Shown one piece after another: positions 1 to 30,347 of a stretch of DNA of 41,001 bases (its first letter is position 1; every line of letters begins with the position of its first letter). The notes below the pieces were generated by a model. It was not told the DNA's origin. It did not search any database and saw nothing but the letters and a program-made list of their open reading frames with translations. Origin of the DNA: Deltaproteobacteria bacterium (GTDB lineage Bacteria > Myxococcota > B64-G9); NCBI GenBank assembly GCA_030622135.1, contig JAUXGL010000014.1, positions 1-41,001 of the forward strand, in the 5' to 3' direction. Both the position numbers and the translations under genes were made by a program.

Positions 1-230
1 AAAAGCACATGTGGCCGCTTACCATCGTGCCACCTCGATATGCCGAGTCATGGATAGTATGCTTCTCGGACATATACAACTCTTGGCGTGATTACCTGGT
101 GCCGCTGACATTAACTCTGATAGGCAGGCGAAAGAAATGGATTCGCCTCGCGAGTTCTCGTTTCCCAGCCTACGCTGTTTTACAAAATGACTACATAAAA
201 AGGCAAGACACATGTATTCCGTTCCCCGTA

Positions 231-1535
231 ATGACTAGAGAGAACCGATCTTTATCCATACTACTTATAGATGCAAGGACGCGCGTATTGCCGTTTACAA
301 CTTTTCGGAATCTTACCCTACCACGGGTAGCTGGGGCAACCCCTGAAAAGCACCGCGTGAAGATTGTAGACGGCAAGGTTGAGAAAATTACAATTCCCAC
401 CCATGGCGTAGATTTGGTGGGAGTTACCTTCTCGTGCAACAACGCCCCGTTTGCATATGAGATTGCAAGAAAGGCGAGGGAGCTTGGGATATTGACGGTA
501 GCCGGGGGTACTCATGCCACGGCGGTTCCCGATGAGGCCCTTGGCCACTTTGATAGTGTTCTTGTCGGTGAGGCAGAAGGAGGAGCGTGGGAGCGTTTAC
601 TGGAAGACGCGTCAAAAGGCTCGCTCGAAGATCGATACAGCAATGCCGAGCCGCCTGACATCAGCGATCTGGCGCCTCCACGTCTCGATTTGTTGCGCTC
701 CAGACTATACCTGCCAGCCTATCCGGTCGAGGCGACACGCGGGTGCCCGAATCGTTGCTCCTTCTGCTTCAGCAGGTATATTCATCGAACATACAGGAAG
801 CGCCCTGTCAGCCAAGTCGTCAAAGATGTATCCAGGGCCGACAGGAACAACATTTTCTTCATGGACGACAACATCACCGCCGATGTAAATTATGCAAAGG
901 AGCTTTTTACGGCTCTGATTCCATTGAAAAAACGTTTGTATTTTCAGATGCAGTTGCGCGCGGCCGAGAATGAGGAACTTGTGCGATTTGCAGCAGAAGC
1001 GGGGGGCCGGGGGATCTTTACAGGTTTGGAAAGCATATGTGCCGAAAGTCTTGATTCGGTTGAAAAATCCTTCAATAAAGTAGAGAAGTACAAGGAGCAA
1101 ATTGCAACTCTCGACCGACACGGCATTCTTGTCGTGGGTGGTTTGATATTCGGCCTTGATGCTGACGATAAAAACGTCTTCAAACAAACGATGGAGTTCC
1201 TGAGAGACAGCAAAATATGCAGTGTCGCAGTAAATCTTGCAATTCCATATCCGGGCACGGAGTACCACGCACAAAAGAGATCCGAGGGATGTCTATTGGA
1301 ATGCGATTATAAATCCTACACCGGTTACAATCTTATTATTTGTCCGAAAGGCATGGCGACTGATGATCTGGAACATGGGTACGATAATTTCATCAAGCAG
1401 TTCTATTCAGCAAGGAACATTATTGGGCGATTTAGACAACAGCATAGGTCGCTGAGGCAATTGCCAATGTATATAGCGGTCAATCTTGCATTTAGATTTC
1501 CAAGGAGGGCGAAATCGCGTTCATTGTGGAATTGA
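231..1535 (+). CDS. B12-binding domain radical SAM protein
   Basis: ORF 9..1535. Cx3CxxC motif 'RGCPNRCSFC', N-terminal 'ILLIDARTR..PFTTFRNLTLPRVAG' and 'GGTHATAVPDEAL' typical of cobalamin-binding rSAM proteins. Start moved to ATG at 231 because the first ~74 codons do not look like the family. Confidence 0.85.
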   Translation: MTRENRSLSILLIDARTRVLPFTTFRNLTLPRVAGATPEKHRVKIVDGKVEKITIPTHGVDLVGVTFSCNNAPFAYEIARKARELGILTVAGGTHATAVPDEALGHFDSVLVGEAEGGAWERLLEDASKGSLEDRYSNAEPPDISDLAPPRLDLLRSRLYLPAYPVEATRGCPNRCSFCFSRYIHRTYRKRPVSQVVKDVSRADRNNIFFMDDNITADVNYAKELFTALIPLKKRLYFQMQLRAAENEELVRFAAEAGGRGIFTGLESICAESLDSVEKSFNKVEKYKEQIATLDRHGILVVGGLIFGLDADDKNVFKQTMEFLRDSKICSVAVNLAIPYPGTEYHAQKRSEGCLLECDYKSYTGYNLIICPKGMATDDLEHGYDNFIKQFYSARNIIGRFRQQHRSLRQLPMYIAVNLAFRFPRRAKSRSLWN

Positions 1536-1580
1536 ATTGCAGGGTAGACAAGAACCGGTAGACAACCAGGCTGCCGTGTA

Positions 1581-2363
1581 TTGGAAGGTTCGGGAATGAG
1601 TATCTCCGGCTGGCTACGCAAGCGAAAAGAAAAGCGGCGCGAGAAGACCATCTTGCGCTACAAGAAGCATATCAAGAGTAAGTTCGGCCAAGGGGAGGAC
1701 CGACAAAGGGCGGTACACTTTTTCGAAGAGCTCGGGGGTAAGCAGGGGCACCTGGGACTTCTGGAACGGTTTATGGTCAACGTCGATCAGAGCATCAGGG
1801 ACGAGGAAGAGAAGGAAAATGTTTTCAGAATCCTCGTCGGGTTCGGGGCTGAAGTGGTGCCGGCAATAGAGGACTATCTGAATCGCAAGGACGCTGCCAT
1901 CGTTCCGGTCACCTGGCCGCTCAAAGTGCTCGATGCGGTGACCGAGCCTAAAGAAGCGGTGGGGGTAGTTGTACGAGCTCTGGAGCAAATGGGTACAACC
2001 TACGCCAGGGAGCCGGAACGTAAGGTCTTGCTGGTTTCTCAGTTGGCCGAGTACGATGATCCGCGGGTGGTCCCCGCCCTGATACCTTGTCTTCGAGACC
2101 ACCGTGACGAGGTTCAGCTAGAGGTGCTTTCAGCGCTGGCTAAAAACGCTGACGAGGCGGCAAGGGAATCGGTACTGGAGTTGTTGGTGGATGAGGAGAC
2201 GCCGCTGAGGCTGCGCGTTTCCATTACAGACATTTTGCAAAAGCTTGGATGGCCCGTGAAGGGTTACCGTAGGCGGGTGGAGGAAGCACTCCCGGATGGG
2301 ATGCATGTGGATCGTTCGGGCCGGATCAAGGGCCGATGGATCCAAGCGTCATCGGAGGAATAA
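1581..2363 (+). CDS. HEAT-repeat domain protein
   Basis: Helical repeats such as 'YDDPRVVPALIPCLRDHRDEVQLEVLSALAKNADEAARESVLELLVDEETPLRLRVSITDIL'. Confidence 0.7.
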   Translation: MEGSGMSISGWLRKRKEKRREKTILRYKKHIKSKFGQGEDRQRAVHFFEELGGKQGHLGLLERFMVNVDQSIRDEEEKENVFRILVGFGAEVVPAIEDYLNRKDAAIVPVTWPLKVLDAVTEPKEAVGVVVRALEQMGTTYAREPERKVLLVSQLAEYDDPRVVPALIPCLRDHRDEVQLEVLSALAKNADEAARESVLELLVDEETPLRLRVSITDILQKLGWPVKGYRRRVEEALPDGMHVDRSGRIKGRWIQASSEE

Positions 2364-2487
2364 TGATGAATAGGTGCCGTTCGTGAGTAGACGCAAAGGA
2401 AAAGTGATGATTCGAAAGTTTCCAGATGAAGCCTTTGACTATGAAGAATCGTGTGCGCCTGAATGCAGGTAAGTCGAGAGCATTGTT

Positions 2488-2838
2488 ATGATCAGATGCC
2501 TTAGAATCATCCCGGTCTTCGTCCTTGCCGTGGCTGCCTTTTCATCCACGGTTTGCGGCACGTCCCGACAGGTCAGGCATGACTACACCTGGGTACCTTT
2601 CGATGCTGTGATTGGTCGCCCAAGTGACGATCAGAAGGAGATATTGTCCACATTCGGAATTCCCCATGCTGTCTGGCAGAAGCCGTTCGGCATATTCGAG
2701 TGGGTTTATTGTACACGCGGTTCTCCAACTCGTGTTTTTGATTTTGACGAACAAGGCAGGCTCTTTGGAGAAGGTAGCGGCGGAAGCAAGGACCTTTGTC
2801 GCGAAGCCGGCACAGACGATCATAAGCCCCCAGGATAA
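2488..2838 (+). CDS. Small secreted protein / putative lipoprotein
   Basis: N-terminal hydrophobic signal 'IIPVFVLAVAAFSSTVCG', 116 aa. Confidence 0.5.
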   Translation: MIRCLRIIPVFVLAVAAFSSTVCGTSRQVRHDYTWVPFDAVIGRPSDDQKEILSTFGIPHAVWQKPFGIFEWVYCTRGSPTRVFDFDEQGRLFGEGSGGSKDLCREAGTDDHKPPG

Positions 2839-2931
2839 AGCCCTTTGATTTCGAGGCCAACCTAATGGATTTGAGGTAGTTGATGATTTGCGATTGGAAA
2901 TTCGAAGAGTTATCAGGGGAGCCGGCCGAAG

Positions 2932-3645
2932 ATGGTCTGTAGACCTCCGAATCCAGATTTATATCTCGAACCTACGGAGTTCATTGACTCGAACCATGTG
3001 TGGATTCTCGACTGCGTTTCTCGTCTCGGTGCCTCTTATCTGGACGTGAAAGATCGCGCAATACTCCTGTTTCGCTTCGTACGCGATCAAATTCAGTATA
3101 ACTTCCGGGCGAGGTCGACACCCAAGGAGTACATTGCTTCCAGCATCCTGGCCAAGCGGAAGGGATTCTGCGTACAAAAAGCCATTCTTTCGTGCGCACT
3201 CGGCAGGGCGGCTGGTGTACCAACAGCACTGGTCTTCTCTGACCTGCGTGACCACACCCTTTCACCGGAAATTGTTCAGGCACTTGGAACGTACGTCATG
3301 TATTACCACGGGTTGAATGCCTTTTTCCTCGATGGGGGCTGGGTAATGGCCGACGCGAGCCTATCTCCTGACATAGTTGTACGCAAAGGCTATCGGCCCG
3401 TGGATTTCGATGGAACGACTGATGCCTTGCTCTCCTCGACGACGCTCGCGGGTGAGCCACATGCTGAATACGTGAGATTTCACGGGATCTTTCTGGACCT
3501 ACCCTTCGAAGAAATGCTTCAGGCTTTCATGGATGCTTATAGGAACGTGGATCCGCAAGCCCTGGAGCGGCTTGGTTACCAGTGGTGCAGTCAAGAGAGT
3601 ACGCGGTTTCTGGAAGTAGTAAAGAAAGGAAGGATGCCATCCTAA
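2932..3645 (+). CDS. Transglutaminase-like domain protein
   Basis: Cys-His-Asp arrangement: 'KRKGFCVQKAILSCALGRAAGVPTALVF', 'YYHGLNAFFLDGGWVMADASL'. First gene of a tight operon; its stop overlaps the next start (TAATG at 3643-3647). Confidence 0.8.
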   Translation: MVCRPPNPDLYLEPTEFIDSNHVWILDCVSRLGASYLDVKDRAILLFRFVRDQIQYNFRARSTPKEYIASSILAKRKGFCVQKAILSCALGRAAGVPTALVFSDLRDHTLSPEIVQALGTYVMYYHGLNAFFLDGGWVMADASLSPDIVVRKGYRPVDFDGTTDALLSSTTLAGEPHAEYVRFHGIFLDLPFEEMLQAFMDAYRNVDPQALERLGYQWCSQESTRFLEVVKKGRMPS

Positions 3646-4898
3646 TGAACGGCCTGGTTGACTGGCTCCGGGGCGATCTATCTACCGCCGGGCGTATCTG
3701 GAGTGCCTTGGCACCGGCATTGATACTGGTTGCATACTTCGTGGTGGGATTGCTTATTTACGGCGTTCGTTGTGCCCTCCGAGGGCCTTACCGGGATCAA
3801 GAGATGGAAGCCCGCGGTTCCAGCGTGCTGGTCGGCATGTGGATCCGCCTCTACTTCGCATGGGTCAGCCGGCCGCTTTGGATTGCCCTGTGCCGCAGCG
3901 GTATCCCGGCTTCGTCGGTAACCACCCTTTCTTTCCTGCTTGCTGTTGCATCCGGTGTGTCGCTCGGGGCCGGACGGTTCGCGCTGGGAGGCTGGCTGTA
4001 CATCTTTTCCGGGATCCTGGACCACATGGACGGGCGTTTGGCGCGGGCGACAGGCACTCAGAGTTCCGGCGGCGCGGCGCTCGATTCAGTGCTCGATCGC
4101 TGCAGCGACGGTGCCGTGCTGATAGGGTTCGCCTGGTTCTACAGGGACAGTTGGGTGCTTCTCGCGGTCTTGACCGCGATGTTGGGCACTTACCTGGTGT
4201 CGTACATTCGCGCGCGGGGGGAAGGCCTCGGGGTAAAGATGACGGTGGGTCTCATGCAGCGTCCCGAACGTATCCTTTACATGGGCTTCGCCGCGGCCAT
4301 GAGCCCGGTCCTGGAGGCTGTCCTTGTACCCGGGGATCCACATCCTATACACCACCTGGCGGTCGTCGGCCTGGTCTTGCTTGCTGTCTCGACTAACCTG
4401 ACGGCTCTTCGTCGCTTCTTGCACCTGCTGACCGCCCTCGGGCGCAATCCCTTGGGAGGATGGTTCCATGCGGGTCGAGGCGGCCTGCTTCGGAGCCAGG
4501 TGGCGGCGGGAATGGCCACGGCCGCCGACTTTCTACTGGTCGTGGCTCTGGTTACGGGCGCCGGTATTTTCCCCTGGTTCTCGACAATGATCGGTTGCGT
4601 TCTGGGAGCGGTGGTCAACTTCTCGGTCAGCCGCGTGTGGGCCTTCAAGAACGTCGACTCGTTAGTGCCCCAGGCATCACGATACGTCTTCGTCAGTCTG
4701 ACCAGCGCCTTGCTCAACGGAGGCGGCGTGGGCGTGCTGCTCCTTCTGCCGGCACTGGATTACCGTATTGCCTGGGTGCTGGTCCGAGCGGTGGTCGCCC
4801 TGGCATGGAACTACCCGCTCCATCGGGACTACGTCTTTTCCGCAAAACCGTCGAGCTTGAACGATCGAGGTGCCCGTGTCTCCGGTTCGTCCGAGTGA
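3645..4898 (+). CDS. CDP-alcohol phosphatidyltransferase with C-terminal GtrA-like domain
   Basis: CDP-OH-P signature DGxxARx8GxxxDxxxD = 'DGRLARATGTQSSGGAALDSVLD'. C-terminus 'AADFLLVVALVTGAGIFPWFSTMIGCVLGAVVNFSVSRVWAFKN' matches the GtrA pattern. Confidence 0.85.
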   Translation: MNGLVDWLRGDLSTAGRIWSALAPALILVAYFVVGLLIYGVRCALRGPYRDQEMEARGSSVLVGMWIRLYFAWVSRPLWIALCRSGIPASSVTTLSFLLAVASGVSLGAGRFALGGWLYIFSGILDHMDGRLARATGTQSSGGAALDSVLDRCSDGAVLIGFAWFYRDSWVLLAVLTAMLGTYLVSYIRARGEGLGVKMTVGLMQRPERILYMGFAAAMSPVLEAVLVPGDPHPIHHLAVVGLVLLAVSTNLTALRRFLHLLTALGRNPLGGWFHAGRGGLLRSQVAAGMATAADFLLVVALVTGAGIFPWFSTMIGCVLGAVVNFSVSRVWAFKNVDSLVPQASRYVFVSLTSALLNGGGVGVLLLLPALDYRIAWVLVRAVVALAWNYPLHRDYVFSAKPSSLNDRGARVSGSSE

Positions 4899-7821
4899 AC
4901 ACGAAGGCCGGATTGCACAATGGGTCGAGGTCAGGCTGGGTGGCCTGGCACTGACTGCCCACCGTCGCCCGGCACTTGCTATTTCGGTCATAGCAATCGT
5001 TCTGATCCTGGCGGCCTTTTCGGCGCGTAGGCTCGATTTCGACGCCGATCTAGTCGAGTTGTTGCCCAAGTCGTTCAGGAGCGTCAAGGATATCGATCTA
5101 CTGAAGGAGCGTTTCGGGGGTATAGGCTACGTTGTGGTCGTCGGGATGGATGCAGAACCGGACGCATTGCGCCGCTTCGCCGAAGACGTCGTGCCGCGGC
5201 TCGATGAGCTACCCGCGGTTCGTTACGTGGACTATCGGCGACCGTTGGAGTTCTTCGCGGATAGGGCGCTGTACTTCTTCGACCTCGCCGATCTGAAAAC
5301 CGTGAAAAAGAGACTCGGAGACAGGGAGCAGTGGGAGCGTCGCAAGCACAACCCTATGTATATAGACATGGAAGATTCACAACCGCCCCAACTCGACTTT
5401 TCAGACTTGGAGGAAAAGTATTCGGGTCGATCCGAGCGCAAATGGATGGAAGCTCAGCTCGGCGAAACCTACTATCTGGACGAAGAGCGAAAGATAATCG
5501 CGTTGCTGGTGAAACCCGCAAGCATGGCTTCCGACCTGGATTTCTCACGCGAGGTCGTGGGCCAGGTTCAGGGCTTCGTGGATCGCCTGAACCTTTCGAA
5601 GTACGGCCCGGACATGCGGGTCGAGCTGACTGGACGATACAAGAAGAGAATCGACATGCAGTCCATGATTTCCAAGGATCTGGCACTTGCCTCCGCCGTA
5701 GCCCTGGTTCTCATGCTCTTGTACATCGGGATTCACTTCCGCAGGGCGACAGCGGTAGCACTGATTACGATACCCCTGGTGGTGGGCCTGACCTGGACTT
5801 TTGGCTTTGCCGGGTGTGTCTTCGAGTCACTGAACATCCTCACCGGATTCATCGGCGCGATCTTGCTGGGACTGGGTGTCGACCACGGGATTCATCTCCT
5901 GGGCAGGTACGAGGCCGAGAGGAAGGAAGATCGCACCCATGAAGAAGCCATTCGACGCGCTTTCGGCAACACGGGTCGGGCGGTCACGATTGCGGCGTTG
6001 ACCACCACGGTCGCCTTCGCAGGGCTGGGTCTCTCGGAATTCCGGGCGTTTAGAGAGTTTGGGATCATAGCCGCCGTCGGGATGATCTCCGTGGTGGCTG
6101 CTTACTCGATCTGCCTCCCGGCTTTCCTTGGAGTGGCCGACCGCCTCGGCTGGCGACCGAGTACAGGAAATCTAAGGAAGTCGTCAAAATATGCCGGTTT
6201 ACTCCCCAGGTGGGCCCCGGCCATCTTCTGGCTGTTTCTCCTGGGGATCTTCGGTTCGGCGGTTTACATTCCCAGTGCCGGCTTCGACTACAACTTCTCT
6301 TCTCTGGAGGCCACCGACCTTTCTTCGTTCCGCCTGGACCTGGAAGTGAACAGGCTCCTGGGCTACTCGCAGACCCCCGTCGTTCTTCTCGCGGCGGATG
6401 AAGACGAGGAGCGTGCGGTGGCATCCGCGATCCGCAAGCGGAGAGATGCAGCCGGAGAGGAGTCCACTGTAGATTTCATCGCGGCCGGAGCAGACCTGAT
6501 ACCGCTGGCTCAGGATGAAAAGCACCTGGTTATCAAAGATATAGGACGCATCATCCGCAAAATCAAACCCAAGTGGCTGGATCCCGAAGATCGTGGTCGG
6601 CTAAGGGATCTCAAGCGGATGACCTCAATAGAGCCCTTCGATCAAAAGGACCTCCCGGTGGAGGTGCGCAGAATGTTTGCGGGTCCCGACGCTTCGATCC
6701 AAGAAGGTTTCGTGCTGGTCTTCCCGGGCATAAGCCTGAGCGACGGGTTGCTGGTGCGGGAGTTCGCCCGGGAGGTGAGGGAAATCCCGCTTCCCGACGG
6801 GAGGACCGTGTCGGCCGCCGGCGAGGCCATGATTCTGGCTGACATCCTTGAAATGGTTTTCAGGGAGGCGCCTCCAGTGCTGGCCATGACCCTGGTTTTG
6901 GTCTTTGTCGCCCTGTGGCTCATGTTGGGCAGGCTGCGGAACGCATTTCTCTGCCTCGTTCCGGCAGCCTGCACACTTACACTCTTGGTGGGTCTTCTTC
7001 CGCTGTCGGAGTTGCGCCTGAACTACCTTAACATCATCATGATTCCGGTCCTTTTCGGAATCAGCGTGGATGGAGCGGTCCACCTGGTCACTCGTTTGTC
7101 CGGCGACCATGGGCTGACCGACGTTGTCAATGAGACCGGAAGGTCGATAGCCGGCGCTATCCTGACCACCGGCATGGGATTCGGTTCCTTGCTTCTTGCC
7201 GACCATCAGGGGCTTAATTCTCTCGGCAAGCTTGCCATGCTAGGCCTCAGCGCGAACCTGGTTGCCTGCCTGGTGGGTTTGCCGGCCCTCCTGGCCCTGC
7301 TTGCGACCAGGCGCAAAAGAGCCGGGAAAGGCGCGGGATCCGGCGGTCGCGGCGGTCGTATCGTTGAGGATCTGGCCACCGTCGGGATGGCTGGCGAGTC
7401 GCCGGTGGCACCGGGCACGCTGGGTGCCCTGGCGGCTATTCCCGTCGGTTGGTTCCTTTCAGGCGTGCCCGGGCCCGGCCAACTGGCGATACTTGTGGCC
7501 ATAACCCTTGTCTCCGTGGCTGTGGTGAATCGATTCATTTCCGGCCGGAGTGACACCGACCCTCCTGAAGTCGTGCTGGACGAGTTCATCGGTTGCCTGA
7601 TTGCACTTGCGTTCGTGCCATGGGAGGCGGCGTGGGTCATCGCCGCTTTCGTACTGTTCCGCCTCTTGGACATATGGAAGCCGTGGCCGATACGAGTTGT
7701 TGATCGTCGCATCCATGGCGGAATCGGCGTGATCGGGGACGATGTCATCGCCGGACTTTTGGCCGGCGTCATCCTGCTGGCACTGCACTCCCTGGGATGC
7801 GCCCATGGTTTTTGGACTTGA
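4870..7821 (+). CDS. MMPL/RND-family transporter with C-terminal phosphatidylglycerophosphatase A (PgpA) domain
   Basis: Two MMPL repeats ('GLGVDHGIHLLGRYEAER', 'GISVDGAVHLVTRLSGDHG'). The C-terminus carries PgpA hallmarks 'SPVAPGTLGALAAIP', 'VVLDEFIG', 'FRLLDIWKPWPIRVVDRRIHGGIGVIGDDVIAGLLA'. GTG start. Confidence 0.88.
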   Translation: MPVSPVRPSEHEGRIAQWVEVRLGGLALTAHRRPALAISVIAIVLILAAFSARRLDFDADLVELLPKSFRSVKDIDLLKERFGGIGYVVVVGMDAEPDALRRFAEDVVPRLDELPAVRYVDYRRPLEFFADRALYFFDLADLKTVKKRLGDREQWERRKHNPMYIDMEDSQPPQLDFSDLEEKYSGRSERKWMEAQLGETYYLDEERKIIALLVKPASMASDLDFSREVVGQVQGFVDRLNLSKYGPDMRVELTGRYKKRIDMQSMISKDLALASAVALVLMLLYIGIHFRRATAVALITIPLVVGLTWTFGFAGCVFESLNILTGFIGAILLGLGVDHGIHLLGRYEAERKEDRTHEEAIRRAFGNTGRAVTIAALTTTVAFAGLGLSEFRAFREFGIIAAVGMISVVAAYSICLPAFLGVADRLGWRPSTGNLRKSSKYAGLLPRWAPAIFWLFLLGIFGSAVYIPSAGFDYNFSSLEATDLSSFRLDLEVNRLLGYSQTPVVLLAADEDEERAVASAIRKRRDAAGEESTVDFIAAGADLIPLAQDEKHLVIKDIGRIIRKIKPKWLDPEDRGRLRDLKRMTSIEPFDQKDLPVEVRRMFAGPDASIQEGFVLVFPGISLSDGLLVREFAREVREIPLPDGRTVSAAGEAMILADILEMVFREAPPVLAMTLVLVFVALWLMLGRLRNAFLCLVPAACTLTLLVGLLPLSELRLNYLNIIMIPVLFGISVDGAVHLVTRLSGDHGLTDVVNETGRSIAGAILTTGMGFGSLLLADHQGLNSLGKLAMLGLSANLVACLVGLPALLALLATRRKRAGKGAGSGGRGGRIVEDLATVGMAGESPVAPGTLGALAAIPVGWFLSGVPGPGQLAILVAITLVSVAVVNRFISGRSDTDPPEVVLDEFIGCLIALAFVPWEAAWVIAAFVLFRLLDIWKPWPIRVVDRRIHGGIGVIGDDVIAGLLAGVILLALHSLGCAHGFWT

Positions 7822-7833
7822 TCGGGAGAGAAC

Positions 7834-8472
7834 ATGAAACCGACGAAAACAAACCTGTTGATGACCACGCTGTTGATCCTTTCTCTTCTCAGTGCCGCCG
7901 CAGCCGCGAAGGACGGTCCACTGAAACGCAACCAGGGTCTGATCGCCGCGTTCAGGAGCGTGAAGTCCGCGCCCGAGGGCAAGGAGTTGACGCCGGCGGA
8001 CAAGAAATCCAACGCCAAAGTTTACAGGAGGCTTGACGGTTTCTTCGACTGGGAGCGCCTGTTGGCCAGGACCATGGCGCCTAACCGTGAGAAGTTCTCA
8101 ACCGAGCAGTTGGAACGTTCCCAGGCTGTGTTCAAGCAACTCATCCGTATCATCGCCTATCCGGACTCTGGAGAGTTCTTTCGTGAGGCGAAGTACTCGC
8201 TCAAGAAACCGGTCATAAAAGGCAATCACGCCGACGTGGAGATGAACGGAGAGCTGGTCGAGGAAGATTTCGAAATCGTTGTCACATTCCACTGGATGGA
8301 TACGGGATCCCACTGGCGGATCGTCGACGTGAGCTTCGACGGCGCGTCTCTGGTCAAGGATTATCAGAACCAGTTTGGCCGGATCATCGACAAGGAGGGA
8401 ACCCAGGGTCTGCTCAAGCGCATGGAGGACCACCTGCGAGAGAAGGAGGGCAAGAAAGGCAGGTTGCCATGA
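7834..8472 (+). CDS. MlaC/Ttg2D-like periplasmic lipid-binding protein
   Basis: Signal peptide; 'FFDWERLLARTMAPNREKFSTEQLERSQAVFKQLI...' and 'GSHWRIVDVSFDGASLVKDYQNQFGRII' are typical of the MlaC family. Confidence 0.8.
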   Translation: MKPTKTNLLMTTLLILSLLSAAAAAKDGPLKRNQGLIAAFRSVKSAPEGKELTPADKKSNAKVYRRLDGFFDWERLLARTMAPNREKFSTEQLERSQAVFKQLIRIIAYPDSGEFFREAKYSLKKPVIKGNHADVEMNGELVEEDFEIVVTFHWMDTGSHWRIVDVSFDGASLVKDYQNQFGRIIDKEGTQGLLKRMEDHLREKEGKKGRLP

Positions 8473-9836
8473 AGTTTGGGAGAACCCTCGCCTTCGTGCT
8501 CATCTTTGGTTTGGCACAAGGTTTTGCGATAGCGGAAACAGTGCCGCCGAACACGCCGCTCACGGTCGATCGGTGCGTGGAGATCGCACTGGGAAGCAAC
8601 CCGCGGATCGAGGAGGCCGAGGCCAAGGTTCGCGAGTACCGGGCCCGGCTGGCCGAGGTGGAGTCGATATTCTATCCCAAGCTTACGGGCATGGCCTATG
8701 TGGCGCCCATGTTCACGGTGCGCGGCAGCGCCTTCGATAAGGAAATCGAATACAAATGGAAAGACATCGGCAACTGGGGGCCCTATACCCATTTCGAGGC
8801 GGTTTTGGCTCAGCCTTTGTATACCTTCGGTCGTGTAGCTGCCGGCGAGCTCGCGGCGAGTGAACGCGTAGAGGTCGAACGGGCTCGTCTCAGAGAGGCA
8901 CGCAACCTGGTGGCTCTGGAGGTTCGCAAGCTCTATCACACCAGGTTATTCGCACTGAGCATGCTTCCTTCTCTCGACAACGCGGCCGAGATCGTGGCCG
9001 GCGCCCGCAAGGAGGCCGGGGAGCTTTACGACCGCGCCTCGGGTAAGGTCACCCAGGCGGATCTGATGAAGCTGCGCTATGCCGCCACGGAAGTGGATCG
9101 TTACCGTATCCTGGCCAGAGGAGGTGCCGAGCTGGCCCTCTCCGCGCTGAAACACACCATGGGGTTACCGGAGAAGGAGGAGATCCGTCTGGCCGACGAA
9201 CGCCTTCCTCGGCTTCCTCCCCAGGAAGTGGCTGATATGCATTCTCTGCTCAAGGAGGCCGCGCTCAATCGTTCCGAATGGATGCAGGTAAAGCATGGAA
9301 TAGGAGCCGCCGAGGCCTGGGCCGACGCCGAGCGTAAAGCTCTCTGGCCGGTGGTTTTCCTGGGGGGCATGCTGCGAGCGGGGTGGGCGCCAACCCGCGA
9401 CAACGCCGCCAATCCCTACCACTATGACCCGTACAACGAGGTCGTAGGTGGACTGGCCCTGGGATTCATTTTCGATTTGGACCCCGCGCGTACCGTGGCG
9501 AAGACCCGCCAAGCCGAGGCAACCAGGGATCAGATTGAGGCGCTGAGAAAATTCGCCTCCACCGGGATACCGCTCCAGGTTCTCAAGGCACGCACTGAAG
9601 TTCAGCGGTACCGTCGTCTGGCGGGTCTTTCGACTGATTCCGTCAAATCGACCCGAAAATGGATGACCTTTGCCGCGGCCGCCTATGGTACCGGGACAGG
9701 GGAAGCCAGGGACCTGGTGGAGGGAATGGTCGCCTATCTCCAGTCAAAGCGCGCTTACTACGAGGACCTGCTCGGTTACCACATAGCCCATGCAGAACTG
9801 AATTACGCGGTGGGAAAGGAGAACGTATCGAAATGA
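8469..9836 (+). CDS. TolC-family outer-membrane efflux protein
   Basis: Signal peptide; 'TPLTVDRCVEIALGSNPRIEEAEAKVREYRARLAEVESIFYPKL' followed by coiled-coil repeats. ATGA overlap with the upstream gene. Confidence 0.85.
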   Translation: MKFGRTLAFVLIFGLAQGFAIAETVPPNTPLTVDRCVEIALGSNPRIEEAEAKVREYRARLAEVESIFYPKLTGMAYVAPMFTVRGSAFDKEIEYKWKDIGNWGPYTHFEAVLAQPLYTFGRVAAGELAASERVEVERARLREARNLVALEVRKLYHTRLFALSMLPSLDNAAEIVAGARKEAGELYDRASGKVTQADLMKLRYAATEVDRYRILARGGAELALSALKHTMGLPEKEEIRLADERLPRLPPQEVADMHSLLKEAALNRSEWMQVKHGIGAAEAWADAERKALWPVVFLGGMLRAGWAPTRDNAANPYHYDPYNEVVGGLALGFIFDLDPARTVAKTRQAEATRDQIEALRKFASTGIPLQVLKARTEVQRYRRLAGLSTDSVKSTRKWMTFAAAAYGTGTGEARDLVEGMVAYLQSKRAYYEDLLGYHIAHAELNYAVGKENVSK

Positions 9837-9861
9837 CAGCACAAAATGAAAGGCTCTTACG

Positions 9862-11118
9862 ATGAAGACTGGCGATGCCCTGAAAGCATCTACTCGCTTT
9901 CCGGTGAATGCGATCACCCATATTCATACCGAGTACTCGAACGGCTCAGCCTCAAAACTGGATCCCATGGTAAGAAGAGCCGTCTGTGAGGCTCTTGGAC
10001 CGGAGACGATTTTCAAGTGGGGTGAATGTTTCACAACCGTGGAGAAGTTGCTGGCCTTGCTCAAGAGTCCTCATCGGCGACGGAATCCATCGATCGGCAT
10101 CATTACGATAACCGACCATATGAATCACCGACGTCATTTCTTCTCAGATGAAGTCTTGCGCGTTGCAGCCAGGGAACCCAGGATTGCTGCTTGCGCTGAG
10201 GTCTTCTGTATCGACCAGGATGGGGACGGCTTATATCGAGTAGCTCCCGAAGTATTGGTCTACGGTGATGGGAACCCAGTCGAGAGTGAATACGGAGAGT
10301 ACTTCGGTTTATCGCAGACACTATTGGAAAAACTATTCAGAACTTGCCGGGCAAAAGGATCGGATAGAGTCCAGACCTCCCGGGTTCTCGACTTCTGTGA
10401 AGAAAACGGCATTGCGTGCTGCTTGGCCCATCCTTTCGACGGGCACGAACTTTCTCTCGAAGCCACGTTTGATCTAATCTCTCGGGCCCGCTTGGTAGAG
10501 ACGATAAACGGAGGATTTTCCGCCATCAGTGCTAGGATTCTGGAAGACTTCATCGCATTTCAAAATCGGGTGGTCACCGGCTGTCGTCTTTCAAAGGAAG
10601 ATGCGTTGCGCTATCCCGTTGCCCAAAGACTCGCTAGTCGAATCATGTCGGAGGGCCGCTCTGTGTTGCATCCATGGGGGGGATCGGACGCCCACGAACA
10701 TAACTTCGCGCGTGTTGTAGTGAATTACCTATCGGACAAACCGAATCCTTCCGCAGGAGATCTCTTTCGGACCATGATCGAGACTCCTGTAGAAACTCTC
10801 CTGTCAGAAGGAACCTTTGCAGTCGTTGGAGAACCTGGCACGGTCGTTTCGGGGCTCACTGATATCATGCGTATTGTTGCTCGAAACATGTGGAGAAACA
10901 AGCGAAGTATATTCAATACTCCTTTGAGATCCTGGAGAATAGCTTCAACCGCTGTCAGAGTGGTTCAAGAAGAACTCCGTCACCGACATCAAAGACAGTC
11001 GACACTACTCCATCAGGTGGAGCACGACTTCGGTTTCAACAAGCTTCTGCCTCCCGTGGTGTTATCAAATGAGGTCCATGAGCCCGCTCAAAAATCAATG
11101 AAATTGGTTCTTTCATAG
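9862..11118 (+). CDS. PHP-domain metal-dependent phosphoesterase-like protein
   Basis: 'THIHTEYSNGS', 'ITITDHMNHRRHF', 'CAEVFCID', 'CLAHPFDGHE', 'GGSDAHEHNF' match PHP metal-binding motifs. Confidence 0.75.
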   Translation: MKTGDALKASTRFPVNAITHIHTEYSNGSASKLDPMVRRAVCEALGPETIFKWGECFTTVEKLLALLKSPHRRRNPSIGIITITDHMNHRRHFFSDEVLRVAAREPRIAACAEVFCIDQDGDGLYRVAPEVLVYGDGNPVESEYGEYFGLSQTLLEKLFRTCRAKGSDRVQTSRVLDFCEENGIACCLAHPFDGHELSLEATFDLISRARLVETINGGFSAISARILEDFIAFQNRVVTGCRLSKEDALRYPVAQRLASRIMSEGRSVLHPWGGSDAHEHNFARVVVNYLSDKPNPSAGDLFRTMIETPVETLLSEGTFAVVGEPGTVVSGLTDIMRIVARNMWRNKRSIFNTPLRSWRIASTAVRVVQEELRHRHQRQSTLLHQVEHDFGFNKLLPPVVLSNEVHEPAQKSMKLVLS

Positions 11119-11331
11119 GCTGCGTAATACCAGCGAACATGGGTATTTCAGGGCGGGTCTTTTCTTCTGTCCGCCTTTGCTGGAACCGACCAGGGGGAAC
11201 GCGACGACGCCATGGGCCGGTTATAGCCGCAATCATTGCGACAGCTTATAACCTGCTGGGAAATTTGGATTATTTCCCGTCATTGCTACCTTTGCGTGGA
11301 GGTGATAGAAATATGGGTAGGGAGGTTTGAT

Positions 11332-11790
11332 GTGAGTGGGAGCACTGGTAGTTGGAAGAGGATGATTCTTGTGGTGATTTCTTTGGGATTGTTGGTGGGA
11401 TGCGGTTCGAATGGTAATGAAGACGATCGCAGGTATCCGGAGATCTGCGACGCCATCATCGATTGCGAGGCGATGACCAAGGACCATTGCATGAGCGTCT
11501 ACGGACCGTTCGTGTTTTTGGACGAATGTATTCAGGCGGTAAAGCAGGCCTCTTGTGAAGAGCACCAGCAGGCTCCGCCGCCGTATTTAGATACCTGCTT
11601 TCCACCTTGCATGGGCATCGACTCAACCTGCCAGGGTGACGAGATCACGGTTTGCTCTCAGGGGCGGACCAAGGTTTCTTTGTGCATCGAGGTGTGCAAG
11701 ATATCCGGGAAGGACTATACCGGAGTTTGCGCCAACCAGTACGGCGAAGAGATGTCACCCACCGGGCTGGACATGTGCTGGTGCGAGTAG
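11332..11790 (+). CDS. Cys-rich putative lipoprotein
   Basis: Lipobox 'SLGLLVGC'. GTG start at 11332 preceded by GGGAGG. Many Cys residues (13+) in a short mature region. Confidence 0.65.
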   Translation: MSGSTGSWKRMILVVISLGLLVGCGSNGNEDDRRYPEICDAIIDCEAMTKDHCMSVYGPFVFLDECIQAVKQASCEEHQQAPPPYLDTCFPPCMGIDSTCQGDEITVCSQGRTKVSLCIEVCKISGKDYTGVCANQYGEEMSPTGLDMCWCE

Positions 11791-17411: not shown

Positions 17412-17843
17412 ATGTCCGGTCCCGGTCTAATGGTCCAACCTCTGCGGACTTTCCTGCGCTACTGGCTCCCCCTGTTGATATACATCGGCCTGATATTTAT
17501 TTTTTCCTCCCTTTCCAAAAGACCACATTCGATCCTGGAGTTCATCCCCGACAAGCTGCTGCATTTCATCGAGTACGCCCTGCTGGCCGCTCTTACCGCA
17601 CGGGCCGTCTACTCCCTGCCTAAACCCGGCGCGTGGTGGGTGGTGTTGCTGATCACTTTTATCGCCGTGGCAACCCTGGGCATCCTGGACGAACTCTACC
17701 AGAGCACCATCCCCCGCCGCAGCCCGGAACTCCTCGACTGGGTGGCGGACGCCAGCGGGGGGCTGCTGGGAGGTGTCTCCTACCTGCTGCTGAAGCGCTG
17801 GTTGGTTCGCAGAGCGGAAACCTTTAGCCTAGAGCGATGCTAG
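17412..17843 (+). CDS. VanZ-family membrane protein
   Basis: 'WLPLLIYIGLIFIFSSLSKRP', 'PDKLLHFIEYALLAALTARA', 'LDELYQSTIPRRSPELLDWVADASGGLLG'. Confidence 0.85.
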   Translation: MSGPGLMVQPLRTFLRYWLPLLIYIGLIFIFSSLSKRPHSILEFIPDKLLHFIEYALLAALTARAVYSLPKPGAWWVVLLITFIAVATLGILDELYQSTIPRRSPELLDWVADASGGLLGGVSYLLLKRWLVRRAETFSLERC

Positions 17844-18964
17844 TTGTTGGGCTGGTCCAGGAGTTTGTCGAGTCGGGAGAGGACCTCCCGCGTTTGTTCC
17901 TCCGTGCCCAGGCCGAAACGCAGGATTCCGGGGAGATACTTGGAACGGTCGCGGATATGAACACCGACGTCAGCCAGCTTTTTGGCCATCTCCGGGGCAT
18001 TCTCGAACTGCACCAGGATGAAGTTGGCGTACGTCGGTTTGCAGGGAATTCCCCGCCGGTCGCAGAATTCCTTCGTGAGGGCTGCGCTTCTTTTTACCTG
18101 CCGAATGTAACGACGGTAGTAGGGCATGTCCTCCAGAGCCGCTATCGCAGCGATCTGGGCCATGATGTTCACGCTCTTTGGGTTGAACACCCGCCTAAGA
18201 TTATTGACGATTGACTCGGGGGCCATCAGATAGCCGATTCGCAGGCCGGCCAGCCCGAAGCACTTGGAAAACGACCTGGTGACAACCAAGTTGTCCAATT
18301 CGTCAACCAACCTGGCGCAACTGACCTGGGCAAACTCGTAGTAAGCTTCATCGGATATGATCAACACACTGGGATGACGTTTGGCCAACTCGTACACTTC
18401 GGCGGGAGAGTAAATGTTGCCGGTTGGGTTGTTCGGATTCACCAGATACACGATCTTGGTGTTTTCGTCCACGGCCCTGGAGATATCCTTCAATGAGTGA
18501 ATCAAGGGAGTCTGGCCGGAGACCTTCTTGATCCCGGCTCCGGTCCTCTGGGCGAACTGCAGGAAGTGGTTGTAAGTGGGAACCGGAGAAACCACGTTGT
18601 CGGTACTATCCAGGTAGCTCTGGCAAATCAGGTCCAGGGCATCATCGGAACCGTTCGTAACCAGCAATTGGGACGCCCGGCGATCGGTATACTCGGACAG
18701 GTGTTCAAACAGCGTGGCCGAGTACATCTCGGGATACCACTCAAGCCGCGAGCCGTTGTTCAAGTACTCAAGCAACGCCTTCTGCACCCGCGGCGAGGGC
18801 GGGATGGTGGTTTCGTTCCAGTCCAGTTTGAAATGGGTGATCCCCGGATTGCTCTTGATGATATCGAGCGACGAAACCGGATCATAGGGCTTCAGATCCT
18901 TGACTCGATCCGATATCCTCGGGTTGCTGTCGAGCAGAGGATGATCGCTGGTCTTCACTTCCAT
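17840..18964 (-). CDS. HisC-like PLP-dependent aminotransferase (class I/II; histidinol-phosphate aminotransferase / threonine-phosphate decarboxylase type)
   Basis: 'NPNNPTGNIYSPAEV', 'ISDEAYYEF', PLP-Lys 'SFSKCFGLAGLRIGYLMAP'. RBS GGAGGAG before ATG. Confidence 0.85.
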   Translation of the reverse strand: MEVKTSDHPLLDSNPRISDRVKDLKPYDPVSSLDIIKSNPGITHFKLDWNETTIPPSPRVQKALLEYLNNGSRLEWYPEMYSATLFEHLSEYTDRRASQLLVTNGSDDALDLICQSYLDSTDNVVSPVPTYNHFLQFAQRTGAGIKKVSGQTPLIHSLKDISRAVDENTKIVYLVNPNNPTGNIYSPAEVYELAKRHPSVLIISDEAYYEFAQVSCARLVDELDNLVVTRSFSKCFGLAGLRIGYLMAPESIVNNLRRVFNPKSVNIMAQIAAIAALEDMPYYRRYIRQVKRSAALTKEFCDRRGIPCKPTYANFILVQFENAPEMAKKLADVGVHIRDRSKYLPGILRFGLGTEEQTREVLSRLDKLLDQPNN

Positions 18965-19031
18965 GATGCTCCTCCAATATCGATTTTAGCCAACTACTCC
19001 AAATACACCCACCAGGTCAGGAGCTTTTGAT

Positions 19032-19046
19032 GCAAATTACGTACCA
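19032..19046 (-). promoter_or_regulatory. Sigma-54 promoter (-24/-12) upstream of the aminotransferase
   Basis: Reverse strand TGGTACG-TAAT-TTGC, exact GG-N10-GC spacing; predicted 5'UTR about 56 nt. Confidence 0.65.
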
Positions 19047-19132
19047 ATCCGATAATATTCTATAAAACCGGGTCGATCCTTTCGGAAAACGGATGTATTT
19101 GTTATTCCGTTATTAATTCTTATCCCGGGAGC

Positions 19133-19165
19133 GAAAAAATCATGGTTTTTTCAAAAACCTCCATG
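19133..19165 (-). terminator. Possible intrinsic terminator downstream of the second MMPL gene
   Basis: Reverse strand CATGGAGGTTTTTGAAAAAACCATGATTTTTTC: bulged hairpin plus T-run. Confidence 0.4.
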
Positions 19166-19224
19166 AAGACGGCCCCATGACGGTTCTATGGTGTAGTATT
19201 TCGTATACAGTGTGAATACAGGTC

Positions 19225-21786
19225 TCACGAAGAAGCGCCGTTTTTCCTGCTTAGCTGAGCCTTTACCCTGGTGTCGTGTTGCTCGACCATCTGCACTAAA
19301 ACGGGCAGTAGGAATACCGCCGCCGCGAGACTGGCCACCTCGCCGATGTTGGCGAGAATGCCGAAGGACACTAGCGCCTGGTTGTCGGCAATCAGCAAGG
19401 AGGAATACCCGATCAACGTCGTCAGCGAGCAGAGAATCACCGCACCCCCGGTACTGCCGATGACCCGCTGGATGGATCCCGGGCCTTCAATTCGGTATCG
19501 ATTGAGGACGTTGACCGCGTAGTCGATACCGATGCCGAAAGTAATGGGCAGAGCGATGAAGTTGAGGAAGTTTAGTTTCATACCGATCATGGCCACCGGA
19601 CCCACTGTCCAGACCACGCCGAAGAACAGCGACACGAGTATCAGCAAGACGTACTTCAAGCCCTGGTATGCGATCAGGACCAGAAGCATCACCCCGAGCA
19701 GCGAAGCCACCACGGCCCGCGGGCCGTCCCGCTCGATGGCCCGGATCATGTCCGCGAAGATCGTGGCCACGCCCGCGGATGTGACCGTCTCCCCATCCGG
19801 CAAGGAAACCTTCCGACTGGCATCGGACACTTCCATCAGAAATTGCCCGTCCCACACTGAGCGACCGTGGCGAGGATAAAGGGCGATAGGCAGACCCATC
19901 CTTCCGTCCAACTCGGTGAACATGCGCGCGATGGCGACAGGCAGATCTCCCATGCCGACCGGTTTCAAGTCATCCGGAGGCCGGTATTTTTCCACCTCCT
20001 CCCGGTCCTCGTCTGACAACCAGCTTAAGGTGCTCTTGGTCAAAAGCTTCCTTATTTTCTTGAGAATCCCGATCTTCTTCTTCTGATCCTTGGGAAGATA
20101 GGAGTAGATGGATTTGACCTCCTGGAACAGGCCGCGATAGGAGCCGGTGGTGTTTTTTCTTTCGAGCTCGGTCATGATCAATGGAACTTGATCCTCGCGG
20201 TCCGCCAAGATGAACAACGGATTCAACCGGCGAGTAAATATCTTGTCCACCCGGTTGCCGAGCTGATAGGTCGCCACGCCCTCCCGCTGATTCCTCAGGT
20301 TCCTGAAGTCGTATTCGAAAGGATCCTTGATGTACGAGATGGCAACCAGGATGCAAACGCCGGCGAACAGCCATCCCACCACGTGCAACAGGATACCCCA
20401 ACGCCAGACGAAGCGAGCGTAAGGCCGGGCAAAGAGCCCCGTGGGAATGCCTTCGCCTTTCTTCTTGAAACGAAGCGGCAATATCTTTTCAAGCAGCACC
20501 ATGAATGCCGGCTGGATGGTGAACGCGGAGAACCAGCAAAGGATCATTCCCAGGCCGCCCATGTATCCGAAGCCGTTGAAGCCCCTGAACTTGGTGATGA
20601 TCAGCGATCCGTAGGCAATGCTGGCGGCCAAGGCCGCGGTGGAGGTGGCCTTCATTGTATACTTCAGGGCGGCGCACAGGGCCGCGCGCATGTCTTTACC
20701 CGAACGACGCTCCTCGATGTAGCGCGCGAGCTGGATCAGCCCGAAGTTGATGCCGTTCCCCACGATGATCGCGGCCAGGAAGGCCGTGGAGGTGTTCAGG
20801 TGCCCCACAATGTAAATGGAGATCCCGAAGGTCCAGGTGGTGCCCATCAGGAGCGGGATTCCGATAATAGGCAGGCTCCGGAAAATCCTGAAGAACAAAA
20901 GCACCACTAGGCCCACGAAGAACAGGCACACGCAGGTCACCAAAATGAGGTCAGAGACGATGGCCTCCTGCTCCACGATGGCGGTCACTATGCCGCCGGT
21001 GAATCCAACCTGGATGGACGGGTGATAACGCTCGCGGCATTTCTCATCGATGATCTTTTCGAGGTCGGCCTTGTCGGGCAACTCACCGCCAAAGCACACT
21101 TCCGCGGTCGCCGTCTTGACGGCCTTATGCATCCGTTTTCCAAATTCCACGCCGGTGGAGGCCACGGGGGGATAGAGCAGGATGGCAAAGAGGTGCCCGT
21201 CCTCGCAGGTGAAATACCCGTCGATGTAACGCTGAAAGGATGAGGTCTTCTTCTCGTACTTGCCACGAATGTCGGAGATATCGAACTCGACCGGTGCAAG
21301 CTCCTCCCCGTCGAAGTCCATGCTCAGCACCGGGTTGTTCTTGATGCGCTCGTAGCGAATCTTGTCGCTCAGGCGCCGGTATAACTCATCGAGGTCTTCT
21401 GTGTCGGCATACAAGTGTTTGTGCTTTTCGTAAAATTCCTTTTCCTGGTTTATGTCGTATTTGAAGTAATGGATATATTCCTCCGGCATCTCATTGAAGC
21501 GACTCACCAGATCGTCGATCAGCTTGCGGTTGGCCTCGACGTCCTTACCGGTCACCGCGACAAACATGCTGGACAACCCCCCCTTGCGTTTCTTGGCCTT
21601 CTCCAGATCCTTGATGGAAGGCTCGTCCTGGGGCAGCAACTCGGCGAAATCGGTCTTGATGGTAAACCGCGAAGCAGACAAACCGGCCAGCGCGGTCACC
21701 AGCACCGCCACCACCAGGATTGGCTGGTGGTGGCGGATCAAGAAGTCGGTGTAACGCCCGACCAGCCTATTGAAGGGAGAGCTCAT
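19225..21786 (-). CDS. MMPL/RND-family transporter (second paralogue)
   Basis: 'FTIKTDFAELLPQDEPSIKDLEKAKKRKGGLSSMFVAVTG', 'NGINFGLIQLARYIEERRSG', 'GIGIDYAVNVLNRYRIEG'. Start ATG at 21786 overlaps the kelch gene stop. Confidence 0.88.
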   Translation of the reverse strand: MSSPFNRLVGRYTDFLIRHHQPILVVAVLVTALAGLSASRFTIKTDFAELLPQDEPSIKDLEKAKKRKGGLSSMFVAVTGKDVEANRKLIDDLVSRFNEMPEEYIHYFKYDINQEKEFYEKHKHLYADTEDLDELYRRLSDKIRYERIKNNPVLSMDFDGEELAPVEFDISDIRGKYEKKTSSFQRYIDGYFTCEDGHLFAILLYPPVASTGVEFGKRMHKAVKTATAEVCFGGELPDKADLEKIIDEKCRERYHPSIQVGFTGGIVTAIVEQEAIVSDLILVTCVCLFFVGLVVLLFFRIFRSLPIIGIPLLMGTTWTFGISIYIVGHLNTSTAFLAAIIVGNGINFGLIQLARYIEERRSGKDMRAALCAALKYTMKATSTAALAASIAYGSLIITKFRGFNGFGYMGGLGMILCWFSAFTIQPAFMVLLEKILPLRFKKKGEGIPTGLFARPYARFVWRWGILLHVVGWLFAGVCILVAISYIKDPFEYDFRNLRNQREGVATYQLGNRVDKIFTRRLNPLFILADREDQVPLIMTELERKNTTGSYRGLFQEVKSIYSYLPKDQKKKIGILKKIRKLLTKSTLSWLSDEDREEVEKYRPPDDLKPVGMGDLPVAIARMFTELDGRMGLPIALYPRHGRSVWDGQFLMEVSDASRKVSLPDGETVTSAGVATIFADMIRAIERDGPRAVVASLLGVMLLVLIAYQGLKYVLLILVSLFFGVVWTVGPVAMIGMKLNFLNFIALPITFGIGIDYAVNVLNRYRIEGPGSIQRVIGSTGGAVILCSLTTLIGYSSLLIADNQALVSFGILANIGEVASLAAAVFLLPVLVQMVEQHDTRVKAQLSRKNGASS

Positions 21787-22871
21787 TCCACACTCGATTC
21801 TTCGCACGGAGAAAGCGACCAGGTCTCCGCGCTTAGCTGCCGACGGTGAGCCCCGCCGAAACAAATCCAGCTACCGGGCCGGCCCGGCTCCGCAGCGCAG
21901 GCCAACCGGTGCGCAGTCGCCGGACCGCCCGCGACTTCGAAGTCTCGCCACTCCTCGTCACCGGCGGTGATTGTCCAGAAGCTCCACTCGCGGTCTTCGT
22001 CTTCCTCGTCGGGTCCCCGACCCACCAATAGCATCTTGCCGGTGGGATCCCTGGCTGCCAGGGTAAAGTCGTGATCGGGAGAATTCCTGGATTCCACCGG
22101 CGACCACACATCCAGCTCGATCTGGAGCGACCAAAGCCCGGTCCTGGTCGGATCAGGCATTCCCACCCGTCCAAATACATGCAGAGCCGATGGCCCAAAA
22201 GCGAGCAGTGAAGTGGGGCCGCCCATATCCAGCAAGACCGGTGACCCAGCCATGAGCGGACCACCGTCCGTGGCTGCGCGCCGAAAGGAAAGCTCCCTGA
22301 AGTCGAGGGACCAGATGTCTTGCCGGTAGTAGTGCGGCGGTCCGCCGAATCCTCCGAAGATCACCATGGCGTCCTGGGTCGCCAGCGCCGCGTGCCAGGC
22401 GCGTCCCGCCGGTCCCGCGCTGAAGAACTCGCGGCTCCATCCGTCGTCTGCGGAGTACAACCACAAGTCGGAATGGAACTTCACCTCTCCGGAACTGTCG
22501 AAACTGAATCCCCCAAAAACAATCAGTCGCTTGGAGGCGGGGTCGAACACCAGGCTGTGACCGCTCCTAGCCGACGGCGCTGTGTCGTTTTTTATCTCCT
22601 TCCATGCCGGTTGATCAGGACTGAACGCCCAAAGATCGTTGAAAAACCGATCTCCGCCGCGGCCACCCCAAAGGTAGATTTGCCGTCCGGACGGGTCGAC
22701 GGCCATGGCGTGGTCCAGACGCGCCGCGGGGGCCTCACCGGTTTCAATCCGGTGCCAGCACATCCGGTCATGGTGCTTTGGATGCCTCCCGGTCGCATCC
22801 GACTGACAGGAACAAGCCGGCGCAAGAACTCCAGCCAGAACCATGAGCAGTGATATGCAGTTTAAACGCAT
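21783..22871 (-). CDS. Kelch-repeat lipoprotein
   Basis: Lipobox 'GVLAPACSC'; kelch motifs 'GRQIYLWGGRGGDRFFNDLWAFSP', 'KRLIVFGGFSF', 'DAMVIFGGFGG'. Confidence 0.75.
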   Translation of the reverse strand: MRLNCISLLMVLAGVLAPACSCQSDATGRHPKHHDRMCWHRIETGEAPAARLDHAMAVDPSGRQIYLWGGRGGDRFFNDLWAFSPDQPAWKEIKNDTAPSARSGHSLVFDPASKRLIVFGGFSFDSSGEVKFHSDLWLYSADDGWSREFFSAGPAGRAWHAALATQDAMVIFGGFGGPPHYYRQDIWSLDFRELSFRRAATDGGPLMAGSPVLLDMGGPTSLLAFGPSALHVFGRVGMPDPTRTGLWSLQIELDVWSPVESRNSPDHDFTLAARDPTGKMLLVGRGPDEEDEDREWSFWTITAGDEEWRDFEVAGGPATAHRLACAAEPGRPGSWICFGGAHRRQLSAETWSLSPCEESSVE

Positions 22872-22884
22872 TGGATCGGCGGCT

Positions 22885-23970: not shown

Positions 23971-24012
23971 CTTTGTCTCCCATCGGTTGGACGCACCCAG
24001 CGCAGGGGGTCT

Positions 24013-25421: not shown

Positions 25422-25462
25422 ACGATTTTTCTCCTCGGCCAGTAGGACCTCCGGAAACTACA

Positions 25463-25477
25463 GCAATAAACATGCCA
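25463..25477 (-). promoter_or_regulatory. Sigma-54 promoter upstream of the nucleotidyltransferase-HAD-Svf1-kelch-MMPL operon
   Basis: Reverse strand TGGCATG-TTTA-TTGC followed by T, GG-N10-GC spacing; 5'UTR about 30 nt including GGAG RBS. Confidence 0.7.
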
Positions 25478-25553
25478 CCTCAACCCAAATCCCCAAAGCG
25501 CTCCATTTCCAAAATCCATTGGCGCTCCCGGTCGACTGTGCTATTCAGAAGCG

Positions 25554-29086: not shown

Positions 29087-29186
29087 GACTACCTCTCCGG
29101 CTAAGCAGTTTCCATGCCAATGCGCCCTGGCTGCCGGAGACCTTGTAGCCAATTGGGAGTTATTGTCAAACGGGAACAGATCCGGG

Positions 29187-29202
29187 TGGCACGAACATTG
29201 CT
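29187..29202 (+). promoter_or_regulatory. Sigma-54 promoter upstream of LPG-TM protein 1
   Basis: TGGCACG-AACA-TTGCT, full consensus match, GG-N10-GC. Confidence 0.8.
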
Positions 29203-29285
29203 TTTCATTGGCAAGTTTATTACGTTGGCAACCGGACAACGCGAACAAATCATCCACAACGGCTTCACGGACAATGCAGCCCAAC

Positions 29286-30299: not shown

Positions 30300-30331
30300 G
30301 TCTCTCACCCGACTCCACCCACCGCTGCGGT

Positions 30332-30347
30332 TGGCACAAATGTTGCT
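30332..30347 (+). promoter_or_regulatory. Sigma-54 promoter upstream of the methyltransferase
   Basis: TGGCACA-AATG-TTGCT, GG-N10-GC; 5'UTR about 27 nt with AAAGGGGAAA RBS. Confidence 0.8.

Follow-up and report, generated by a model that had tools for sequence, protein, structure and literature searches.

A candidate phosphatidylinositol synthesis and envelope-transport operon with a lipid phosphatase fused to its RND transporter

Introduction

The route by which phospholipids get to the outer membrane has long been an open question, and we know of no dedicated inositol-lipid carrier in Gram-negative bacteria. The closest described set of enzymes is that of Bacteroides thetaiotaomicron, in which BT_1523 is a phosphatidylinositol-phosphate synthase (PIPS), BT_1524 a GtrA-family protein, BT_1525 a PgpA-like phosphatase acting on phosphatidylinositol phosphate (PIP) and BT_1526 a myo-inositol-1-phosphate synthase (MIPS); in the part of that report on which we draw, these roles were assigned from knockouts, together with a structure for MIPS, the PgpA homologue acts on PIP in vivo, and deletion of BT_1524 left the TLC pattern unchanged (PMC9246714). 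In Mycobacterium tuberculosis PgsA1, the residues R94, Y133, R137, and P153 bind inositol phosphate (PMC6506517), and phosphatidylinositol (PI) is present in myxobacteria (PMC9131029). On the side of transport, the HAE3-type RND pump of the AmeABCD system of Castellaniella is encoded with its own periplasmic and outer-membrane partners (PMC6394551), and Ttg2D, a member of the MlaC family, carries glycerophospholipids generally (PMC8035174).

Here, we describe a window of 41,001 bp, the entire contig of a draft genome (G000; 4.79 Mb, 92.8% complete), and argue that four of its genes, B to E, probably constitute an operon for PI synthesis and envelope transport in which a lipid phosphatase is fused to the exporter.

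Results

The initial annotation had described six tightly spaced or overlapping genes on the + strand, two of them unusual fusions, and all six open reading frames (A to F) are indeed present, densely packed at 2932–11118. A (2932–3645) and B (3645–4898) share one nucleotide of stop and start codon (TAATG), placing the start of B at 3645 and not at 3582; B shares 29 nt with C (4870–7821) provided that C starts at the GTG at 4870; 12 nt separate C from D (7834–8472), D and E (8469–9836) overlap by 4 nt, and 25 nt lie between E and F (9862–11118). No sigma-70-like promoter was detected in 2300–11400, and terminator-like sites in this region were not commoner than in shuffled sequence. Both fusions are single chains: B, of 417 residues, joins a CDP-alcohol phosphatidyltransferase domain (PF01066; 1e-13) to a GtrA domain (PF04138; 4e-13), and C is one frame of 983 residues with an HpnN/HAE3-type RND (MMPL) transporter in its N-terminal part (4870–7371; PF03176, 1e-41) and a PgpA-family lipid-phosphate phosphatase in its C-terminal part (7372–7821; PF04608, 8e-36). 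The family labels given earlier to A to E agree with Pfam, while that of F as a PHP protein is weak, the match being sub-threshold (E 0.24).

The closest PDB entry to B is the M. tuberculosis PIPS (2e-19), and its N-terminal half is nearest to phosphatidylinositol-phosphate synthases in both NCBIfam and PDB. The CDP-alcohol motif DX2DGX2AR...GX3DX3D reads DHMDGRLAR...GAALDSVLD in B, which also keeps all four inositol-phosphate-binding residues of PgsA1 (R94, Y133, R137, and P153). Among the 42–43 homologues of B with residues at the positions concerned, D93, R94, and Y133 are constant, position 137 is R or K, and P153 is variable; the second CDP-alcohol enzyme of the window (27698–29563) lacks R94, Y133, and P153. 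Because B scores under the equivalog cut-offs of NCBIfam (PIPSynth, 104.9 vs 170 bits; BT1523, 107.5 vs 350; archaeal, 128.3 vs 180), we term it PIPS-like and do not file it as an equivalog; the enzyme identities are nevertheless well supported, and B is predicted to be a phosphatidylinositol-phosphate synthase-like enzyme. Where the initial annotation had proposed a lipid head-group synthase, the gene is B and the head group can now be named as inositol from the PIPS motif, the residues, and the linkage. The PIPS-GtrA fusion was found again in other families at 45–59% identity, and B-type matches occur in 100 of the 179 genomes of the phylum, some of them spanning the enzyme half alone.

MIPS (32391–33761, − strand; PF07994, 1e-97; PF01658, 4e-31) lies 22 kb from B and, in this reading, is the well-supported candidate for supplying its substrate. 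All 18 relatives with a strong B match carry MIPS, as against 17 of the 39 relatives without one, and in the f8 genomes MIPS is only ~1 kb from B. At that distance of 22 kb, the window holds the complete Bacteroides-type set of MIPS, PIPS, PgpA-like phosphatase, and GtrA, which in G010 is contiguous and includes a PAP2_3 gene. B resembles BT_1523 and BT_1524 joined into a single polypeptide, and the PgpA domain of C would be the counterpart of BT_1525, a correspondence by which both unusual fusions would make sense. PAP2_3 is a family that we take to be associated with AUR1-type inositol-phosphorylceramide synthase; an inositol-ceramide product is unlikely in G000, where PAP2_3 above cut-off is absent, though relatives carry the gene. 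In relatives, PAP2_3 genes lie between MIPS and PIPS, and dual-specificity (DSP) or HAD phosphatases occur in the clusters of genomes with or without PgpA (PAP2_3 and DSP/HAD loci: L163 1275–2201 and 4429–5010; L041 12517–13461; L179 3938–4612). Separately, the window contains a second inositol-lipid-like island on the − strand (17840–33761) with an aminotransferase, a second MMPL protein, a lipocalin-like protein, a HAD protein, an NTP transferase, a CDP-alcohol enzyme, and MIPS, accompanied on the + strand by two LPG_synthase_TM genes. Within the same family, this island and its MMPL gene are conserved together, and it resembles the alternative NTP-transferase/CDP-alcohol/HAD cluster that is proposed for Bacteroides/Prevotella in the part of the report on which we draw (PMC9246714).

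To place the operon among genomes of the one phylum, we used profile scans of 20-kb regions and located genes in relatives by tblastn and HMM because simple ORF picking took some antisense ORFs in the high-GC relatives. MIPS, B, C, D, and E are contiguous in three genomes of family f29 (G174, G175, and G176); in G174, B is followed by a lipocalin-like gene. G010 (f3) has the order MIPS, PAP2_3, B fused to a lipocalin, and C fused to PgpA; two f8 genomes (G035 and G162) have MIPS, PAP2_3, B, C, and a DSP phosphatase, and the other f8 genomes have MIPS, PAP2_3, B, lipocalin, and DSP, with C genes, mostly as a divergent pair, 2–10 kb off except in G047. In f12 and f28, PIPS and GtrA are individual genes adjoined by TolC and MlaC genes, and an MMPL gene lies ~2.6–2.8 kb away; in G029 and G009 C-D-E occurs without B nearby, and neither D nor E was detected around B or C in groups such as f8 and f23. 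A strong MMPL match was present within 10 kb of 27/39 B loci (8 families) and in 0/20 control regions, and D and E were each near B in 9/39 loci (4 families); among the 20 controls, each an arbitrarily chosen 20-kb region of a genome in the phylum and most of them from a few families, TolC was found in 1/20 and a grouping of the MIPS-B-C-D-E type in 0/20. Because the profiles were built from the B loci themselves, the genomes compared are not independent of one another, and the controls represent mostly a few families, we give more weight to the number of families than to p-values; counts for the second CDP-alcohol enzyme of the window were left out, as its profile also matched B. Co-conservation had been suggested as a check on the proposed system, and synthase, phosphatase, RND transporter, MlaC, and TolC do recur together in several families. 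A CrtC/Svf1-like lipocalin, with weak Pfam matches only, adjoins PIPS in five families (window 22885–23970; L041 10305–12515; L269 8193–10514); in G010 and G057 it is part of one chain with PIPS-GtrA.

The PgpA domain of C exceeds the Pfam gathering threshold (123 vs 28 bits) and is catalytically complete, with the invariant DE, FR..D.xKPxP, and DD residues present, the DE and DD pairs at about residues 903–905 and 956–958 of C. The linker ahead of it is rich in Lys and Arg, which suggests that the active site would face the cytoplasm. G005 and G010 carry the same fusion; G030, whose contig here is fragmentary, probably does as well. The fused copies formed one clade (96/87) and the copies adjoining the second MMPL clade formed another (97/86). 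A contig search in which the fused domain dominated the query gave mostly gammaproteobacterial PgpA, and of its results just the PgpA sequences were of use. A second PgpA-RND association occurs in f6 and f11, where a separate PgpA gene lies directly 3' of an MMPL gene of the other clade (L280 8310–11181; L281 8708–11579; L181 7848–10759).

The fused PgpA fits a phosphatase for the phospholipid phosphate made next door; we infer its BT_1525-type assignment, that is, PIP and not phosphatidylglycerol phosphate (PGP) as substrate, from linkage and the Bacteroides precedent. Alternatively, B would make PI while PgpA is an ordinary PGP phosphatase and C-D-E a general module for bulk phospholipid such as PG and cardiolipin. 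This agrees with the fused domain being the only PgpA found in G000 and having all canonical PgpA residues, with the four CDP-alcohol enzymes that G000 has outside the window, and with the position of PgpA in f12 and f23, close to a further CDP-alcohol enzyme that may be PgsA. Yet every PgpA of f1 and f3 is fused to C, and the eight relatives there without PgpA, which must make PG otherwise, are also without B (p=0.018; the count leaves aside G003, the contig of which ends inside C). Moreover, the f8 genomes have B and MIPS and no PgpA, and their clusters contain the DSP phosphatase, a distant relative of PTPMT1, directly after C in G035 and G162; that DSP takes this place where PgpA is absent suggests that lipid phosphatases are interchangeable at this position. 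Co-occurrence of PgpA and B was rejected as proof of a PIP phosphatase because it fails across the phylum, f8 lacking PgpA, and for this reason we relied on position and within-family distribution instead. Given also the action of the Bacteroides homologue on PIP, as far as the consulted part of the source goes (PMC9246714), we regard an ordinary PGP phosphatase in a bulk phospholipid module as unlikely.

D, which begins with a signal-like segment, is a MlaC-like periplasmic lipid carrier by Pfam (PF05494; 73.6 bits vs 26; 2e-20), matches HpnM (3e-9), and has its PDB matches in the MlaC family, while scoring under the MlaC equivalog cut-off (19.4 vs 195 bits); a second MlaC gene is located elsewhere in G000. 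E is a TolC-like outer-membrane protein (OEP, 6e-24) with two PF02321 stretches (85 bits vs 22) and falls below the cut-off of the type I secretion subfamily TIGR01844 (52 vs 225). An 87% identical copy of E lies after D in G005. In G003, a short piece resembling the C-terminus of E lies beyond F (L193 4148–4249; 79% over 34 residues), as if E had been partially duplicated. The direction of Mla transport is debated, and the membership of D in the MlaC family, together with MlaC-MMPL pairs elsewhere in these genomes, would also be compatible with C-D-E working inward or as a Mla-like maintenance shuttle that removes or recycles outer-membrane lipid, its co-location with PI synthesis then serving lipid balance. 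However, no MlaFEDB-type ABC transporter is encoded among the nine ORFs of 9–11118, the characterized RND pumps of the family of C work outward (HpnN; PMC6394551), and a biosynthetic phosphatase fused to C fits outward traffic better; we consider the inward shuttle distinctly improbable and retain export of an inositol lipid as the preferred reading.

Orthologues of C at 40–74% identity are present in ~20 of 57 relatives. Its best matches are HpnN, also the closest PDB entry (5e-28), and BstA, as expected if C were a hopanoid or sterol transporter standing beside lipid genes by chance; its scores are, however, far under the respective cut-offs (TIGR03480, 272.6 vs 751.85 bits; BstA, 157 vs 1400), a hopene/oxidosqualene cyclase (PF13249) was not found in G000 or in six relatives (G003, G009, G010, G017, G023, and G029), and the recurrent linkage of C is with PIPS and MIPS. 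Hopanoid or sterol export was rejected as the main reading on the cyclase and the cut-offs and has, in our judgment, very little chance of being correct. The nine ORFs of 9–11118 include no membrane-fusion adaptor, so that C, D, and E differ from a tripartite RND system. Upstream, a B12-binding radical SAM protein (9–1535) is nearest to HpnJ and HpnR and below every NCBIfam cut-off.

Equally hard to credit is that all six genes form one machine including the transglutaminase-like A (PF01841; Transglut_core, 6e-14) and F, in which PHP-like motifs are seen by eye: the spacing is tight in G000 and F follows E also in G003, but A adjoins B in no other genome compared, its relatives being located elsewhere and a lipoprotein gene like that at 2488–2838 of the window preceding B in G003, and F occurs in 6/9 genomes of the same family and 0 of the other relatives, stands after E solely in G000 and G003, and is absent there in G005. 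On this synteny, A and F were rejected as members of the system.

Discussion

The arrangement of B to E suggests the following pathway. MIPS would convert glucose-6-phosphate to inositol-1-phosphate, which B would couple to CDP-diacylglycerol to give PIP. The C-terminal PgpA domain of C would then strip the phosphate on the cytoplasmic side to give PI; C itself would transfer PI, or a closely derived lipid, to the periplasmic face, D would shuttle it through the periplasm, and E would bring it to the outer membrane or through it. The GtrA domain may have a part in flipping the lipid or an activated sugar. Several observations weigh against this reading: B scores under the equivalog cut-offs, MIPS is 22 kb distant from B in the window, the f8 genomes combine B and MIPS with no PgpA, D and E go undetected around B or C in f8 and f23 among others, no adaptor gene stands in the run to link C with TolC, and the fused PgpA may be the sole PGP phosphatase of the genome. 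The support is strong for the two predicted synthetic steps, which draw on homology, residues, and linkage; the proposed action of PgpA on PIP is based on its position and its homology with the PIP phosphatase of Bacteroides; and for the last three steps, an inositol lipid as the cargo of C-D-E and the direction of its movement are inferred from linkage and fusion.

A bolder version, which we offer tentatively and with more doubt than confidence, is that the PgpA-RND fusion makes dephosphorylation the gate of export: PIP would become PI at the entrance of the transporter and pass via C, D, and E to the outer membrane in a dedicated, committed machine for inositol phospholipids that works with no membrane-fusion adaptor and in which PgpA, DSP, or HAD phosphatases are exchangeable in the gate position across the phylum. 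Of the single lipid synthesis-export machine put forward in the initial annotation, the linkage of synthesis, phosphatase, and transporter stands for B to E in several families and the membership of A and F does not. That annotation also did not recognize a described system here; the enzymes do have known counterparts in BT_1523–1526 as far as we draw on that report (PMC9246714), and the full combination with RND, MlaC, and TolC we did not find described. In the literature searched, outside which most subscription journals lie, we found neither PI synthesis linked to an RND-MlaC-TolC path nor a PgpA-RND fusion.

If the proposed operon is correct, a recurrent combination of PI synthesis with RND, MlaC, and TolC, in which the pump carries a fused phosphatase, would allow the question of phospholipid transport to be tested by following a single traceable lipid. 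The operon further suggests PgpA-, DSP-, or HAD-type candidates for the PIP-phosphatase step outside Bacteroides and bears on why myxobacteria have eukaryote-like lipids.

Compared with known systems, D shares the Pfam MlaC domain, that of a family of glycerophospholipid carriers, with the Mla system and Ttg2D (PMC8035174), but its partners are an RND pump and TolC, the ABC transporter being absent from the operon. In AmeABCD, too, an HAE3 RND pump is encoded together with partners in the periplasm and outer membrane; these are, however, DUF1302, DUF1329, and a photosystem-assembly-like protein and not TolC and MlaC, the cargo is monoterpenes, and there is no biosynthetic fusion (PMC6394551). 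HpnN, which serves lipid traffic towards the outer membrane, belongs to the transporter family nearest to C by sequence; C differs in its scores far below the cut-offs, the missing hopene cyclase, the fused phosphatase, and the MlaC and TolC partners. The mycobacterial PIPS PgsA1 and B are alike in catalytic motif and inositol-phosphate-binding residues, but PgsA1 is not fused to GtrA and B lies under the actinobacterial equivalog cut-off (PMC6506517). Finally, genes of the MIPS, PIPS, GtrA, and PgpA-like PIP-phosphatase types are neighbors both here and in BT_1522–BT_1526, and relatives of G000 add a PAP2_3 gene that would correspond to BT_1522; transport genes are not described for the Bacteroides cluster in the part of the report considered (PMC9246714), whereas the system here has PIPS and GtrA in a single protein, PgpA as part of an RND transporter chain, and MlaC and TolC as additional components.
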